From positions 1,240,001 to 1,304,000 of the forward strand of contig NZ_CP162005.1 in NCBI RefSeq assembly GCF_040822065.1: 64,000 bases of DNA, given 5' to 3'. Shown piece by piece: positions 2,233 to 7,254 of the stretch. The DNA is from Pedobacter sp. WC2423. GTDB lineage: Bacteria > Bacteroidota > Bacteroidia > Sphingobacteriales > Sphingobacteriaceae. Numbering within the stretch: the stretch's first letter is position 1; every line of letters starts with the position of its first letter. A program made the translations under genes and the position numbers. The notes under the pieces are model-generated. The model did no database searches and was not told where the DNA came from. It saw only the letters and a list, made by a program, of their open reading frames with translations.

Positions 2233-2652
2233 TCAAATCAGGAATTTCTTTCTCATTTCCTGAGTCGGAACTACACAACTGTTCATTTGCCCAAACCAGG
2301 AATACCGGCGGCTGGCGAATAATGTATAACCATAATTCCGGACAGAACGCGGAATAAATTCAATCAGGAACAATAACCATGACCACCTGCTCTTTAAATG
2401 TTTAGCTATATGGATAATCCCATCAGAACGGGTAAGAACTCTTCTGTTGTTGATCACGACTATACTGTTCAGATCTAGCAGGTTGATATGGTGAATGGCT
2501 GATAATTCTTTGGCTACGTCACTTTGTAAAGAAGCAAAAACGAATCGGTTATGCTGATCGTGGCTAATCACATAATTGATATAACTGTTGCAGAAATTAC
2601 AAATTCCATCAAACAGTATGATATCTTTTTTTCCGGTTAAAGTTGATGACAT
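2233..2652 (-). CDS. DCC-family thiol-disulfide oxidoreductase
   Basis: The 139-residue protein belongs to the DCC (DUF393) family: the motif LFDGICNFCNSY gives the D-x-x-C-x-x-C signature with cysteines 18 and 21. The family is predicted to have a thioredoxin-like redox function and is often fused or adjacent to HTTM membrane proteins. I start it at 2652 because the ATG there lies 13 bp after the stop of the HTTM gene; an upstream in-frame ATG at 2700 would overlap that gene. It is the last gene of the operon running from 4412. Its redox substrate is unclear because the candidate precursor peptide has no cysteine. Confidence 0.8.
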   Translation of the reverse strand: MSSTLTGKKDIILFDGICNFCNSYINYVISHDQHNRFVFASLQSDVAKELSAIHHINLLDLNSIVVINNRRVLTRSDGIIHIAKHLKSRWSWLLFLIEFIPRSVRNYGYTLFASRRYSWFGQMNSCVVPTQEMRKKFLI

Positions 2653-2665
2653 TGTAATTTCCTGG

Positions 2666-3487
2666 TTAATACAAATAAGATTGAATCTGATAATTGACAA
2701 AAAATAAAGCAGGGTAAGCAGCCATAAAAGCCCAGAAGAATGAATTCAATCCCATAATAATAGCCGTAAACAAATGGAACAGAAAGCCCCAGATGATAAA
2801 AACCAATGCATAATTAAAAGGCAGAATCAGGCATAATGGAAATAAGGTTTCCATGATCATTACATTCCAGCACAAAAATACATTTAGCCCGGGATATTTT
2901 TTCATTAATAATGCAGCCCATTGTGAACCATAAGTCTTAGTGGAAAACACATCCTTAATCGCTGTAGAAGCACGCCATTCTGCTGAAGCCAGTTTAGCAA
3001 TACCTGCAACCGTGTAGGAAAGACAAGTTTGAAGTGCGATGAACCAAAGTCCTATGGTAGCTAAACGGGAACCTGTACCCAGCGGTAAATGACAAAGAAA
3101 AAGTGTGATAATAATCAGCATATTCATCTGATCTGAACCGTCACTTCCATAAAAAGTTATCATAGAACTTGCCAGCAAGCTACCACCTAATAATCCGACC
3201 AAGATCCAGCCATAAGTGCTTTCTAAAGGAAAAAATATCAATCCTAAAATAATAAAGCATCTCAAGCCAAAAATAACAGTCAGCCCTTTCTCATTAAATA
3301 ACTTAAACAAGGGGCTGAAAAATGAGTTGTGATCTTTATTTTCCCAACGTAACTGCATTACATTCCATGAAAGTAAGCCTGTCGAAGAGAAGATCTGAAT
3401 CTTTTTAATATACTCCATAGTGGAGATGAACAAGCCAATACTTAAAATGATTAAAATGAGCCGGTTGGTTTCTATAATAGATATCAT
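2666..3487 (-). CDS. SdpB-like / HTTM-domain multi-pass membrane protein
   Basis: The 273-residue protein is almost entirely hydrophobic, with about six to eight predicted membrane segments, and carries a polar GSDGSDQMNML stretch at residues 114-122 of the kind seen in HTTM proteins (the vitamin-K-dependent carboxylase-like membrane fold). SdpB of the Bacillus sporulation-delaying-protein system belongs to this fold (established knowledge) and is needed with SdpA to mature the SdpC toxin. The call of SdpB-like rests on the fold plus its position 9 bp after an SdpA-like gene and before a DCC gene. An HTTM protein of other function remains possible. It is translated from an ATG at 3487. Confidence 0.68.
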   Translation of the reverse strand: MISIIETNRLILIILSIGLFISTMEYIKKIQIFSSTGLLSWNVMQLRWENKDHNSFFSPLFKLFNEKGLTVIFGLRCFIILGLIFFPLESTYGWILVGLLGGSLLASSMITFYGSDGSDQMNMLIIITLFLCHLPLGTGSRLATIGLWFIALQTCLSYTVAGIAKLASAEWRASTAIKDVFSTKTYGSQWAALLMKKYPGLNVFLCWNVMIMETLFPLCLILPFNYALVFIIWGFLFHLFTAIIMGLNSFFWAFMAAYPALFFVNYQIQSYLY

Positions 3488-3496
3488 AATTCAAAT

Positions 3497-4039
3497 TTAT
3501 ATTTGGTGAAATACAGACAATAAAATAACAGAAGGTGGATTCTCTTTCAAATACCCTGAAGTTTCGGCAAGCATAAACTGCCGTTGTGCACTTCCTGCCT
3601 GGCATTCACAATGGCTTACCGCATGTAATACAATCAAATATGGCATAGAGAACATCAGCAGATCATATCCATTGTTACTTTTATAGTGTGGAATACTTGC
3701 AATTAAGCTTTGAATCACATCTGATAATATTTTTTTATCCCTTTTATCAGGATTCCAGCACCATGACCACAAAGAACGCTCTTCAGTGATGTCCATTTCT
3801 TCCCATTCACTATTACTCTCTTCGTCAATTTTATCTCTGTACAATAAATGATAATCACTTTTTCCAGGATTAGGTGCAAAAAACGTCCATAATGGAACCA
3901 AACCGAAAATATCAATCGTGTGTCTGATATAATTAGAAAATTTAGTACTTCTGAACTGGCATAAAACGGTGAGCAAAAACCATATGGCAAGAAAACTTGC
4001 GACTATAGCTTCATAAATAATATTGATATCTGTGGCCAT
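3497..4039 (-). CDS. SdpA-like antimicrobial peptide system protein
   Basis: The 180-residue protein has one N-terminal membrane segment (residues about 8-29) followed by the motif LWTFFAPNPGKSDYHLLYRD (50-69), then an acidic, tryptophan-rich region and a second hydrophobic segment near residue 130. A membrane anchor followed by a W-x-F-F-x-x-N-P motif is what I associate with SdpA-family proteins, which partner SdpB. Two cysteines (HCEC) sit near residue 145 and could be a redox partner of the downstream DCC protein (inference). It lies 58 bp after the precursor candidate, past a strong hairpin, and 9 bp before the SdpB-like gene. Family assignment needs an HMM test. Confidence 0.6.
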   Translation of the reverse strand: MATDINIIYEAIVASFLAIWFLLTVLCQFRSTKFSNYIRHTIDIFGLVPLWTFFAPNPGKSDYHLLYRDKIDEESNSEWEEMDITEERSLWSWCWNPDKRDKKILSDVIQSLIASIPHYKSNNGYDLLMFSMPYLIVLHAVSHCECQAGSAQRQFMLAETSGYLKENPPSVILLSVFHQI

Positions 4040-4055
4040 ATTGAAGAGGATTAAA

Positions 4056-4091
4056 TTTTAAAGGCGGGTGCAATCAGGCCCGCCCTTAAAA
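4056..4091 (-). terminator. Hairpin between precursor and SdpA-like gene (attenuator/terminator)
   Basis: Bases 4056-4068 and 4079-4091 form a 13-bp stem with one mismatch around a 10-nt loop; the core is GGCGGG/CCCGCC. Read on the minus strand, the stem begins 6 nt after the stop codon of the 104-residue gene and is followed by TTTAAAATTT. This has the form of a leaky terminator that would let the first gene be expressed far above the downstream genes, as in many bacteriocin operons. Confidence 0.75.
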
Positions 4092-4097
4092 CAGTAA

Positions 4098-4412
4098 TTA
4101 ATTAAACTTTTTACGAAGTTCTATTAGTTGCTGAACGTTGATACCAGCTTTAGCATGCTGTTCTAATGATTTGCTGGCTTCATCATGAGTTTCTTTACCT
4201 AAAATAGCAGTTGCTACTTCTACGATGTCAGTCACATAAGGAGTTGCTTTTACTGCAACTCTTGTAGCCTTGGCGGTTACTTTTACAACTGCGGTAATAA
4301 ATGCTTTAACATCTCCGATTTCCGCTTCGATCCCTTCGTGGCCACCTTGCATCTCTGCAATAAGGGCATCAAGTGCAGCTAATTCTGCGTGAGTTAATTT
4401 TAACTTTGCCAT
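4098..4412 (-). CDS. Small peptide precursor candidate with double-glycine motif
   Basis: I do not recognise this 104-residue protein from any named family. Residues 6-24 (LTHAELAALDALIAEMQGG) resemble a double-glycine leader: an amphipathic helix with hydrophobic residues at -4 and -7 before GG at 23-24. After that comes an alanine/valine/lysine-rich segment at about 35-71 (for example VKVTAKATRVAVKATPYV) that could insert in membranes, then a charged tail. There is no cysteine. It is the first gene of the operon, is followed by a hairpin, and precedes SdpA-, SdpB- and DCC-like genes, so it is the natural candidate for the product that they mature. No peptidase-containing ABC transporter is visible nearby, which weakens the double-glycine reading. 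Confidence 0.6.
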   Translation of the reverse strand: MAKLKLTHAELAALDALIAEMQGGHEGIEAEIGDVKAFITAVVKVTAKATRVAVKATPYVTDIVEVATAILGKETHDEASKSLEQHAKAGINVQQLIELRKKFN

Positions 4413-4508
4413 AATTTAATTTGTTAAATAAAATAGTTTTTTAGGTGCGTTAATTTGAAGCTTCATTGCACGATATAAAGGACGGAAGATCACAGGAAAA
4501 TAGCCATA

Positions 4509-4544
4509 GTAGATCTACGCAAAGAAAATAATGAGTAATTCTAC
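4509..4544 (-). promoter_or_regulatory. Paired palindromes upstream of the Sdp-like operon
   Basis: A perfect palindrome GTAGATCTAC (4509-4518) is followed after 16 nt by GTAATTCTAC (4535-4544), centre-to-centre 26 bp. The same arrangement occurs at 7219-7254. It lies about 100-130 bp upstream of the precursor start on the minus strand. It is a candidate binding site for the LuxR-type response regulator encoded next to it. Confidence 0.6.
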
Positions 4545-4556
4545 TTAGTTAAAGGG

Positions 4557-5204
4557 TTATATCAGCCCGTTTTTTACAGCGAATAATACAAGGCCGGCAG
4601 TATTGCGGACACCAATTTTATCAATAAGACGCTGTTTGATCCCTTCTACAGAACGCGGACTTAAAAAAATTGCCGAACCAATTTCAATGGCTGTTTTTTC
4701 ATCGCAAATTAATTGCAGGACTTCCAGCTCACGTTCTGATAAGGCAACTTTATTTGTAAATGCAGGTTTGAAGTTCCCTTTGTTAATCAACTTTTTGAGC
4801 AGTGCCTTATTCATCAGCTCATTAAAATAATAACCATGCAGGTGCACGGCGTATATGGCTTCCCTGATGTCAACAGGATCAGCATCTTTCAGCAAATAAG
4901 CATGTGCACCAATTTCCATCAGATGAACTACAAAACTATCTTCATCATGTAAAGTGACCGCAATGATCCGGATATGCTCATATTTCTTTCGTATTTGTTT
5001 GGTAGCCTCCATGCCATCCATTCCTGGCATCCTCAGATCCATCAAAATGACATCTACTTCATTTTGTGACAATCCATCCAGCAGATCGGCGCCATTTCCT
5101 GCTTCCAGGACTACCTCCATCGCTTTATCCTGGTTCAGACCTACTTTTAAGCCATCCCGGAATATTGCATAATCATCTGCTATTGCTATTTTTATTGTGC
5201 TCAT
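4557..5204 (-). CDS. NarL/LuxR-type response regulator
   Basis: The 215-residue protein has a receiver domain with the acidic pair D10-D11, phospho-acceptor D56 in LMDLRMPGMDG, T84 and K106, followed by a LuxR-type helix-turn-helix (residues about 150-210) with LSERELEVLQLI and LSPRSVEGIKQRLIDKIGV. All receiver residues needed for phosphorylation are present. Its ATG overlaps the stop of the kinase gene by 4 nt, so the two are translationally coupled. It is the last gene of its operon and sits immediately upstream of the Sdp-like operon, which it probably controls through the paired palindromes (inference). Confidence 0.9.
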   Translation of the reverse strand: MSTIKIAIADDYAIFRDGLKVGLNQDKAMEVVLEAGNGADLLDGLSQNEVDVILMDLRMPGMDGMEATKQIRKKYEHIRIIAVTLHDEDSFVVHLMEIGAHAYLLKDADPVDIREAIYAVHLHGYYFNELMNKALLKKLINKGNFKPAFTNKVALSERELEVLQLICDEKTAIEIGSAIFLSPRSVEGIKQRLIDKIGVRNTAGLVLFAVKNGLI

Positions 5205-6004
5205 GTATTTATCTGGTTAGTTGGAACGTGAATATTAATTTGATAACCTGTTTCCTGCTGGGAGAATATCAGTTTTCCATTCAGGGATATGGCTCTGTTT
5301 TGTATGTTCTTAAGACCCAGACCATTTTTCTCAAACCGCAATTCTTCAAAACGCTGCTGAGTCAGGCCCAGGCCATTGTGTGAAATTTTCATGATTAATT
5401 CCTGGCTTGTATACTCAGAAATGATATGAATTTTAGTAGCCTGTGCATGTGTAATAATATTATTGAGCAGTTCCTGAACAATACGATAAACGCTGATATC
5501 ATTTATCATAGGGTAGTGGTGTACATGATCAAGCTCAACTGTAACTCCAATCAGAGATTCATGCGAAATTTTTAAAGCAAACTGACTGATGGCTTCATTT
5601 AATCCAAACTCCTGCAAAATTGCAGAATGGAGACTGTGGGATATATTTCTTACCTTTTTGATCCCTTCGTCCAGTAACTCTTTGGCTTTAATATAGATGC
5701 TCTGATTATATTCTCCTGTGCTCAATTTGATGCTGCGAAAATGTAGTTTGGAAGCGGCTAGAATTGCACCTACTTCATCATGCAATTCTTCGGCTATACG
5801 ATGCCTTTCAGCCTCTTCACTTTTGATTGCCGCTTCTATCAGTTGATTCTTTTGCCGTTCATTTAAGGCCTGAAGAGCATTCTGATACTGTAATTTCTTA
5901 CGTTGTGTAAATATAAAAATCAGCAAAAAGCTAATAAACAGCAATAGCATTGCTGCAATACCTACTACAAGAAAAAGTCTGATATCAATGTTTACCAGCT
6001 GCAT
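5201..6004 (-). CDS. Sensor histidine kinase (HisKA_3/NarX-DesK type)
   Basis: The 267-residue kinase has one N-terminal membrane helix (about residues 10-33), a short coiled coil, the H-box HRIAEELHDEVGAIL with H75, the N-box VQELLNNIITHAQAT and a G-box NGLGLKNIQNR. It has no sensor domain of its own, so the multi-pass protein encoded just upstream may supply input. I prefer the ATG at 6004, which overlaps the last 20 nt of that gene; an in-frame ATG at 6058 would overlap by 74 nt. It couples to the response regulator by a 4-nt overlap. Confidence 0.88.
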   Translation of the reverse strand: MQLVNIDIRLFLVVGIAAMLLLFISFLLIFIFTQRKKLQYQNALQALNERQKNQLIEAAIKSEEAERHRIAEELHDEVGAILAASKLHFRSIKLSTGEYNQSIYIKAKELLDEGIKKVRNISHSLHSAILQEFGLNEAISQFALKISHESLIGVTVELDHVHHYPMINDISVYRIVQELLNNIITHAQATKIHIISEYTSQELIMKISHNGLGLTQQRFEELRFEKNGLGLKNIQNRAISLNGKLIFSQQETGYQINIHVPTNQINT

Positions 6005-6662
6005 AGAAACCTTTAGCAATGAAGAGGTTAAAAACGATATAAGAGATATTATGGACATTCCATAGGTTGATTGCGAAATTTATCATGTGTATAGTAAGTT
6101 CATTGTACAAAAGAAAAATAAAGAAATTAACAGCTACATACAAGCCAAGGCCGGTCGCAATCCAGAAGTCACTTGTGAATATATTCACATTCACGTTTTC
6201 GTGAACCTTAAATAAAAAATAGCTTAATGAGTAAAACAACAATAAAATTGCTTCAACTGATAATAATCGGCTGCTCAATCGCCAATGGTCAAAAAAGTTT
6301 TCGTAAAAAATAAAATTGACTAATAAAAAAACGATAAAGGCAAATTGGATTATCTTTTTTATTCTGACTATAAACGGTTGTTTAAGCCCAATAAAAAATG
6401 AACTGAACAAAAAGAACGTCACTACTGAGTGTAAATTATACAACCAGTTGTTTGAACTAAAGTTCATGGGAAGCGGGATTCTAAACTTCCAGATCATATC
6501 TATACAGCTATTGATGAGTAGCGCAATCCATATATAAAAAGCAACCGGCCGATGAATAGCCGGTTGCTTTTTATACAGCAAGACAGTAGCTGGAATCAAT
6601 AGCGCCCAGACTTCTGACCAATCCAGGATAACTTGTAGCATACGCAATAAATGAGGTAGCAT
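5985..6662 (-). CDS. Multi-pass membrane protein, putative sensor partner of the kinase
   Basis: The 225-residue protein has about seven hydrophobic segments with short polar loops and resembles small 7TM sensor-like modules. I recognise no family. It lies 9 bp after the 161-residue gene and overlaps the kinase start by 20 nt, so it is very likely co-translated with a kinase that has only one membrane helix. The simplest reading is that it is the input or receptor subunit of the two-component system, detached from the kinase. A transport role cannot be excluded. Confidence 0.7.
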   Translation of the reverse strand: MLPHLLRMLQVILDWSEVWALLIPATVLLYKKQPAIHRPVAFYIWIALLINSCIDMIWKFRIPLPMNFSSNNWLYNLHSVVTFFLFSSFFIGLKQPFIVRIKKIIQFAFIVFLLVNFIFYENFFDHWRLSSRLLSVEAILLLFYSLSYFLFKVHENVNVNIFTSDFWIATGLGLYVAVNFFIFLLYNELTIHMINFAINLWNVHNISYIVFNLFIAKGFYAAGKH

Positions 6663-6671
6663 TTCCCTGGT

Positions 6672-7157
6672 TTAGGTAGCAGGAGGAGACGGATTAGTAT
6701 CTTTAGGAGGTGGGCCGGACAAAGCCGGTTTCTGTGCATTACCAATTGTTGAAGCATCATTGTACTGCGCTTCTACACTGTAATACACATGTCTGTCTGA
6801 ACTTAAGTTCGGAACAAGAACTAAATAATCAGGTTTTTCAGGAATATCAATTAATTCCAGCATTTGAGCTAGTGAGAGTATATTATTACTCAATATTACA
6901 GGGCCACTAATTTCCTCAGTGTTGTTCTCATCAATTGTTAAAGTATCATAATAAGTACTATAGGTACCCTCAGGATAAGCAGCATTTACCATATGCGCAT
7001 AGGCAACTAATTGTAGCGGTTCACCTGCCTGATCAGTAGCTGGATAATAGTAAGAAAATACAAAGTTATCTATTCCATCAGAGCTGTCAATTAACTCTTC
7101 AATAGCGCTAACTTCATACCTTAACCAATAAAATTTGAGCGTTTGCAGATCTTTCAT
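6672..7157 (-). CDS. Uncharacterised acidic protein heading the two-component operon
   Basis: I do not recognise this 161-residue protein. It has no signal peptide or membrane segment, is acidic and rich in tyrosine, and ends in a proline-rich tail (SGPPPKDTNPSPPAT). Many aromatic and beta-branched residues suggest a beta-rich cytoplasmic protein. It is the first gene of the operon that encodes the membrane protein, kinase and regulator, 9 bp before the next start. Its promoter region carries an exact -7 box and the same paired palindromes as the Sdp-like operon, so it is probably under autoregulation by the response regulator. Confidence 0.7.
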   Translation of the reverse strand: MKDLQTLKFYWLRYEVSAIEELIDSSDGIDNFVFSYYYPATDQAGEPLQLVAYAHMVNAAYPEGTYSTYYDTLTIDENNTEEISGPVILSNNILSLAQMLELIDIPEKPDYLVLVPNLSSDRHVYYSVEAQYNDASTIGNAQKPALSGPPPKDTNPSPPAT

Positions 7158-7184
7158 TTTTTGAATATTTGGGGTTTAATGATC

Positions 7185-7192
7185 CAAATATA
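7185..7192 (-). promoter_or_regulatory. -7 promoter box of the 161-residue gene
   Basis: TATATTTG on the minus strand matches the Bacteroidota TAnnTTTG box exactly and lies 28 bp before the ATG. No good TTTG -33 box is found at the usual spacing. The paired palindromes start 27 bp upstream, near -40 and -70, where an activator would bind. Confidence 0.55.
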
Positions 7193-7218
7193 GAGTAGAA
7201 AAATATAGAACCCATAAC

Positions 7219-7254
7219 GTAGAACTACGCATTCTTTAATTCAGGTAGTTTTAC
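7219..7254 (-). promoter_or_regulatory. Paired palindromes upstream of the two-component operon
   Basis: GTAGAACTAC (7219-7228) is followed after 16 nt by GTAGTTTTAC (7245-7254), centre-to-centre 26 bp. The first 16-nt spacer begins GC, as at 4509-4544, and CCATA precedes both elements. The shared geometry makes a common regulator likely. Confidence 0.6.

Follow-up and report, generated by a model that had tools for sequence, protein, structure and literature searches.

A conserved pair of facing palindromes as a candidate operator shared by a two-component operon and an SdpA/SdpB-type peptide operon in Pedobacter

Paired palindromes precede two adjacent operons

A stretch of 64,000 nucleotides (nt) from Pedobacter sp. 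WC2423 (contig NZ_CP162005.1, positions 1,240,001 to 1,304,000 of the forward strand), here called the window, carries two consecutive transcription units on its minus strand. The first encodes a protein named hyp161, a membrane protein, a histidine kinase, and a LuxR-type response regulator, and the second encodes a peptide precursor followed by SdpA-like, SdpB-like, and DCC1 proteins (Table 1). Each unit is preceded by a pair of palindromes of the form GTAN4TAC, and comparison with related species places these pairs well above chance. Judged from their sequence and company, the response regulator encoded at 4557-5204 very probably binds the paired boxes and controls both operons.

The pair ahead of the peptide operon consists of GTAGATCTAC (4509-4518) and GTAATTCTAC (4535-4544), and that ahead of the two-component operon of GTAGAACTAC (7219-7228) and GTAGTTTTAC (7245-7254), with 16 nt between the boxes in both cases. 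An earlier note on this DNA had given these coordinates and a centre-to-centre spacing of 26 base pairs (bp), which proved exact for both pairs, and had correctly placed one pair before each of the two adjacent operons. The pairs lie 96 nt ahead of the peptide gene and 61 nt ahead of hyp161, with 2.7 kb between them. Two flanking features that the note described as shared held up in part. CCATA abuts the box at 4509 and is kept at the peptide gene in close relatives, but it lies 2 nt off at 7219 and is not kept before hyp161 in loci L039, L040, L042, L125, and L127. A GC bordering the spacer is shared within the close group of the window (peptide gene 5/5, hyp161 4/5) and at the peptide gene of L040, but not elsewhere.

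Within a pair, the two boxes are not equal copies but tend to be inverted copies that face each other. Their centres are asymmetric, with the distal box tending to be GTANAAATAC-like and the proximal box tending to the reverse complement of that. Among 24 distinct box pairs, 17 were more alike when inverted, 3 when read directly, and 4 equally so (test value 0.001, a guide only, as the species are related). The element thus consists of two small palindromes facing each other within a larger, 36-bp inverted repeat.

The pairs are conserved in position and spacing across 24 species

The SdpA-like protein was searched in 301 genomes of the family, 18 of which gave a match and 15 of which (window included) carried the full eight-gene locus. 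In the 180-nt upstream regions of these first 15 species, the relaxed pair GTRN4YAC-N16-GTAN4YAC was found at the peptide gene in 15/15 and at hyp161 in 5/15, and it never appeared in 300 rounds of shuffling of the same species' upstream regions. This pattern was fixed before nine more species were fetched, four by named genome (Pedobacter cryoconitis S3M1, a Mucilaginibacter metagenome-assembled genome (MAG), M. lappiensis, and the Pedobacter MAG UBA5917) and the other five by searching 400 genomes of the order. In this prospective test, the pair was present at the peptide gene in all nine and at hyp161 in seven, one of which (L128) has GTG rather than GTA in its proximal box, so that the fixed pattern matches on the other strand only.

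With a symmetric pattern applied to all species with the eight-gene locus, a pair precedes the peptide gene in 24/24 and hyp161 in 12/24. The inter-box spacing was 16 nt in 36/36 pairs; N16 was set by the pattern, yet no peptide gene needed another spacing to yield a pair. Within 331 kb of these loci, scanned on both strands, all 36 pairs precede either the peptide gene or hyp161, at distances of 52-127 nt, and 22 SdpA-type loci without detected two-component genes (400 kb) contained no pair. Even in the Mucilaginibacter-group loci L033 and L034, where the operon order is reversed and the peptide operon comes first, each operon still starts with a pair. A matrix built from 14 pairs, including none from the M191 clade described below and none from the L033/L034 peptide sites, gave scores of 16.2-22.7 bits to all 13 peptide sites that it had not been trained on. 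Each of these beat each of 100 same-region shuffles, which reached at most 13.2 bits in those regions.

As for the sample, 13 of 34 named loci came from genomes already in the set, leaving 21 distinct ones. L126, L129, and L130 equal L039, L050, and L042 and were excluded from the 24 species, as were L132 and L133, which lack the locus and were counted among the 22 loci without two-component genes. The alignments covered 12/15 loci (A1), 11/15 (A4), 14/24 (A5), and 15/15 (A2 and A3).

The two promoters differ in box type and distance

The note had reported an exact -7 box at the two-component operon, and this box (TATATTTG) is indeed present and kept in relatives. TAnnTTTG follows the pair in 12/12 species that have one at this operon, at 25 nt in five and 26 nt in seven. 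As TAnnTTTG is the sigma-A -7 box (PMC9723704), the two-component promoter has the hallmark of a Bacteroidota sigma-A promoter in all 12. Under the numbering used there, with the box taken as -12 to -5, the operator centres fall at -43.5 and -69.5 at this promoter, matching the sites near -40 and -70 expected by the note, and at -48.5 and -74.5 at the peptide promoter.

The identical geometry proposed for the two promoters did not survive, since the peptide box is 31 nt away and of another type. TANNYYGT is found at this distance in 24/24 species, as TAnnTTGT in 20, as TANNCTGT in three, and as TATATCGT in the window; these last four species all belong to the close group of the window. PMC9723704 describes TAnnTTGY as the SM5 motif of Flavobacterium psychrophilum, located at -12 to -5, which the peptide promoter resembles through the TAnnTTGT of these 20 species; the window's own TATATCGT differs from it. 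NNCTTTAT, at 26 nt from the pair, may be an alternative box in the peptide promoter; the start of peptide-operon transcription is predicted near 4465, or at 4470 should this alternative box be the one in use. By eye, no conserved -33 element was evident at the promoters.

From the location of the sites ahead of the polymerase box and the lack of an evident -33 element, we infer activation, which is the probable sign at both operons, if less securely so than binding itself. Positions near -44 and -70 are where activators usually sit. The regulator might instead bind and repress one or both operons, or act on the two in opposite ways. Sequence does not reveal the sign, and the promoters differ by half a helical turn in operator distance as well as in box type; yet with the sites centred around -44 and -70 and no conserved -33 element seen by eye, we consider these alternatives unlikely.

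Just downstream of the peptide promoter box, the mRNA leader is predicted to form a stem, mostly TTGTGC...GCACA around GAAGCTTC, in 19/19 folded species (-2.8 to -8.9 kcal/mol, no shuffle control). This stem may protect the 5' end as a hairpin or act as a second operator.

The response regulator is the likely binder

The regulator is the only recognized DNA-binding protein among the eight genes of the locus, as judged by Pfam and NCBIfam. It has the NarL/FixJ (LuxR-type) architecture, with both PF00072 (8.8e-28) and PF00196 (1.7e-10) above cut-off, and the receiver residues D10, D11, D56, T84, and K106 are invariant (15/15 in one alignment, 14/14 in another). These are the phospho-acceptor and active-site residues. 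The same combination of receiver and LuxR/GerE domains is found in the UvrY/GacA, NarL, and LiaR/VraR regulators; the best NCBIfam match, UvrY/SirA/GacA (PRK09483), reached 128 bits, below its curated cut-off of 280. Sites of GacA (TGTAAG-N6-CTTACA) and NarL (7-2-7) differ from GTA-N4-TAC in half-site spacing. The genome encodes seven paralogues of the regulator (E below 1e-10, at most 43% identity), and no GTAN4TAC pair was found in the roughly 3.6 kb around any of the seven.

A further connection between regulator and boxes lies in residue 191 of the recognition helix, which we take, from an alignment by eye, to correspond to a DNA-contacting lysine of NarL. This residue is Q in 12/12 species with a pair before hyp161 and M in 12/12 species without one. 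The peptide operators of the M191 clade end in CAC rather than TAC; the same holds for L033/L034 and L128, which have Q.

The note's idea that one type of operator serves both the peptide operon and the operon of the regulator itself is supported, in that position and spacing are conserved and the pairs accompany the regulator gene. Positive autoregulation, which the note had derived from it, fared less evenly: a pair stands before the regulator's own operon in the window and 11 other species, which is only 12 of the 24. This half without a pair is also what could be said for a DNA-binding protein encoded elsewhere that binds the pair while the regulator serves other genes, although it is nothing direct. 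Such a binder is improbable, as in the examined loci the pair occurs only alongside the regulator gene and in none of the 22 related loci without it, and as the pair before hyp161 tracks the change in the regulator's recognition helix.

Genome counts and the question of chance

The genome-wide search proposed in the note did not return many pairs at random positions. In the whole genome (5.98 Mb), GTAN4TAC-N14..18-GTAN4TAC occurs three times, and a reversed-pattern control also three times, so the motif is not over-abundant. What stands out is that two of the three exact pairs lie so close together, ahead of neighbouring operons. The third (1894748) was set aside, as by eye it falls in an apparent short open frame within a phage-like stretch. 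Allowing one mismatch at N16 gave 15 places versus 17 in the control, and a composite of pair, N26, and TAnnTTTG with at most three mismatches gave 4+5 matches versus 5+8. Only the two-component promoter matched this composite without mismatches; the remaining eight matches had three, one of them being the peptide promoter and another the first pair as read on the other strand. For a wider regulon, the composite and one-mismatch scans gave nothing above control, the GTR/YAC form not having been scanned genome-wide.

As the genome count alone is inconclusive, the case rests on the comparison of species. That the pairs are chance palindromes in AT-rich intergenic DNA agrees with the equal counts of pairs and controls, but is next to impossible given the fixed place and spacing in 24 species and the location of 36/36 pairs at two expected places.

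Proposed mechanism and points against it

Returning to control by the regulator, we infer the identity of the binder, its oligomeric state, the positive sign, and the function of the peptide to combine as follows. A signal would reach the membrane protein and the kinase, and the regulator would become phosphorylated. In this form, two dimers of it would probably occupy the 36-bp element, one per 10-bp palindrome GTAN4TAC, and recruit RNA polymerase to promoters with no evident -33 element. Of the two copies of the element, one would boost the regulator's own operon, creating a positive loop in the species of the window and 11 of the other 23, while the other copy, present in all 24, would switch on the peptide operon (precursor, SdpA-like, SdpB-like, and DCC1).

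Several points weigh against this model. The 26 bp between box centres correspond to about 2.5 helical turns, which would put two dimers on opposite faces of the helix, a geometry that is awkward for dimers that touch. The peptide box lies 5 nt, or half a turn, further from its operator than the two-component box, which puts the promoters out of phase with one another. The 24 species are related, and L033 and L034 are near-identical, so that species are not independent events; likewise, the Q/M correlation may reflect one clade, perhaps one event. Among all 38 regions scored with the matrix, one shuffle, of a training region, scored 18.1 bits and so outranked 3 of the 13 left-out sites. Variation per site among the five closest species is 0.03 in the GTA/TAC letters, against 0.13 and 0.25 in the box centres and 0.29 and 0.41 in the spacers, a contrast that is partly built in because the search pattern demands those letters. 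No terminator-like site was found between 4412 and 4557 on the minus strand, so transcription may read through from the regulator gene, and some transcription of the peptide gene may arise in this way. Finally, 12 of the 24 species lack a pair before their own regulator operon: the hyp161 promoters of the M191 species match the pattern in 0/12, and 10 of the 11 scored with the matrix (L124 left out) stayed under the 95% level set by shuffling the same promoter. The eleventh, L025, reached 7.8 bits, between its 95% shuffle level (4.9) and shuffle maximum (8.9).

With no match to the pattern and no clear match to the matrix, a fit of the pair to the M191 hyp161 promoters was rejected. Upstream of hyp161, the M191 species (11 of the 12 examined; e.g., L032 and L035) carry another conserved block, GTATT(C/T)(A/T)AA..TTTAC and then a GTAT/ATGTTTTTA..TAC block, before TAnnTTTA. 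This is perhaps a changed operator of the clade.

Genes of the locus and comparison with known systems

The features of the window discussed here are collected in Table 1.

Table 1. Boxes, promoter elements, and genes of the locus in the window.
Feature	Position	Strand	Remarks
Distal box, two-component operon	7245-7254	-	GTAAAACTAC on the minus strand; pair in 12/24 species
Proximal box, two-component operon	7219-7228	-	GTAGTTCTAC on the minus strand; 16 nt from distal box in 12/12
-7 box, two-component operon	7185-7192	-	TATATTTG; 26 nt from proximal box; predicted transcription start ~7180
hyp161	6672-7157	-	Begins the two-component operon; not assigned to a family in Pfam or NCBIfam; TNPSPPAT tail conserved
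Membrane protein	5985-6662	-	About 7 hydrophobic segments (by eye); probable sensor partner
Histidine kinase	5201-6058	-	HisKA_3 and HATPase_c
Response regulator	4557-5204	-	Response_reg and GerE/LuxR helix-turn-helix; putative binder of the pairs
Distal box, peptide operon	4535-4544	-	GTAGAATTAC on the minus strand; pair in 24/24 species
Proximal box, peptide operon	4509-4518	-	GTAGATCTAC; pair in 24/24 species
Promoter box, peptide operon	4470-4477	-	TATATCGT, window's version of conserved TANNYYGT; 31 nt from proximal box
Leader stem	4445-4471	-	GTGC...GCAC with GAAGCTTC inside; just downstream of peptide promoter box
Peptide precursor	4098-4412	-	104 residues; no cysteine; no Pfam family
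SdpA-like protein	3497-4039	-	Weak DUF5819 (E 0.059, below cut-off); SdpB-like gene adjoins in distant loci
SdpB-like membrane protein	2666-3487	-	TIGR04033, E 8.6e-8, 32.1 bits vs cut-off 178.4 (below)
DCC1-like thiol-disulfide oxidoreductase	2233-2655	-	PF04134, E 5.8e-26

The hyp161 family shares the tail TNPSPPAT (TNPCPPAT in L033/L034), followed in some species by I-S or I-N. In the window, the tail is encoded at 6672-6698, and its coding DNA occurs once in the genome. The protein of P. cryoconitis S3M1 (L039) lacks its middle part and yet retains the tail. The tail might serve as a peptide signal or for docking. The predicted fold of hyp161 has a mean predicted local distance difference test (pLDDT) score of 72 and gave no match in the PDB with E below 0.001. 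Beyond the family, a search of 395 genomes sampled from the phylum returned two homologues, the window's own and one from a Mucilaginibacter-group genome already in the set. A plasmid search gave no match.

Some loci showed further variations. The peptide promoters of L033 (~5804-5859) and L034 (~5337-5392) carry extra GTAN4TAC boxes upstream of and within the standard pair. Between its kinase gene and the full-length regulator gene, L022 has a second response-regulator match (3705-4120) that is split in two and spans residues 1-139. A Saprospiraceae MAG (L056, 9642-11761), one of the 22 loci without detected two-component genes, keeps the order peptide-SdpA-SdpB-DCC1 without these two-component genes or a pair; by eye from the open frames, a different kinase/regulator pair lies just upstream.

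By analogy, the product of the peptide operon is most likely a peptide that is secreted and has an antibacterial or signalling role. SDP-type (SdpC) toxins have a secreted precursor with a disulfide in the mature part. The precursor in the window has no Pfam family, and the matched stretch contains no cysteine in 24/24 precursors, so that the product is not an SDP-type disulfide peptide. The structure prediction of the peptide (mean pLDDT 45) was not used. For the SdpB-like protein, the TIGR04033 match that falls short of the family cut-off has its best stretch at residues 147-257.

The analogy for a secreted peptide comes from SdpA/SdpB systems (PMC6818787). Like sdpABC/sdpRI of Bacillus subtilis, the locus combines an SdpB-like membrane protein and an SdpA-like partner with a small precursor gene, and has a dedicated regulator nearby. 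In B. subtilis, however, sdpRI adjoins the toxin genes and encodes a repressor and an anti-toxin, with Spo0A activating directly or indirectly (PMC6818787). The locus described here instead pairs a LuxR-type regulator with a kinase and includes a DCC1 protein, and its precursor has no cysteine. In the plantaricin regulon, PlnC and PlnD belong to the LytTR DNA-binding family and recognize direct-repeat sites, as opposed to the facing palindromes and LuxR-type helix found here. The likeness lies in a quorum-sensing two-component pathway in charge of a bacteriocin regulon, whose regulators act as homodimers on DNA repeats (PMC2714321).

Significance

Among open-licence papers, none was recognized on this locus, and none was found on an SdpA/SdpB-type operon tied to a dedicated two-component system; those on response-regulator half-sites, VraR, and tandem dimers offered general background only. 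The idea of a regulator acting on its own operon and a neighbouring one is not surprising in kind, yet is well supported by sequence alone. More speculatively, and rather doubtful as a whole, the locus might form a self-contained Bacteroidota signalling circuit. Here, hyp161 would supply or present the signal, which the membrane protein and kinase would read, and the regulator, acting from facing palindromes, would drive two operons, its own via a sigma-A promoter and that of the SDP-like, cysteine-free peptide via an SM5-like alternative promoter; one clade would have changed its recognition helix and lost this autoregulation.

The paired boxes are a concrete and conserved candidate for the operator of a LuxR-type response regulator in Bacteroidota, and they tie a peptide operon of the SdpA/SdpB type to a two-component system dedicated to it. 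They also form a natural series of 24 variants, in which promoters of two types each keep a fixed distance and one residue change tracks the loss of one site.

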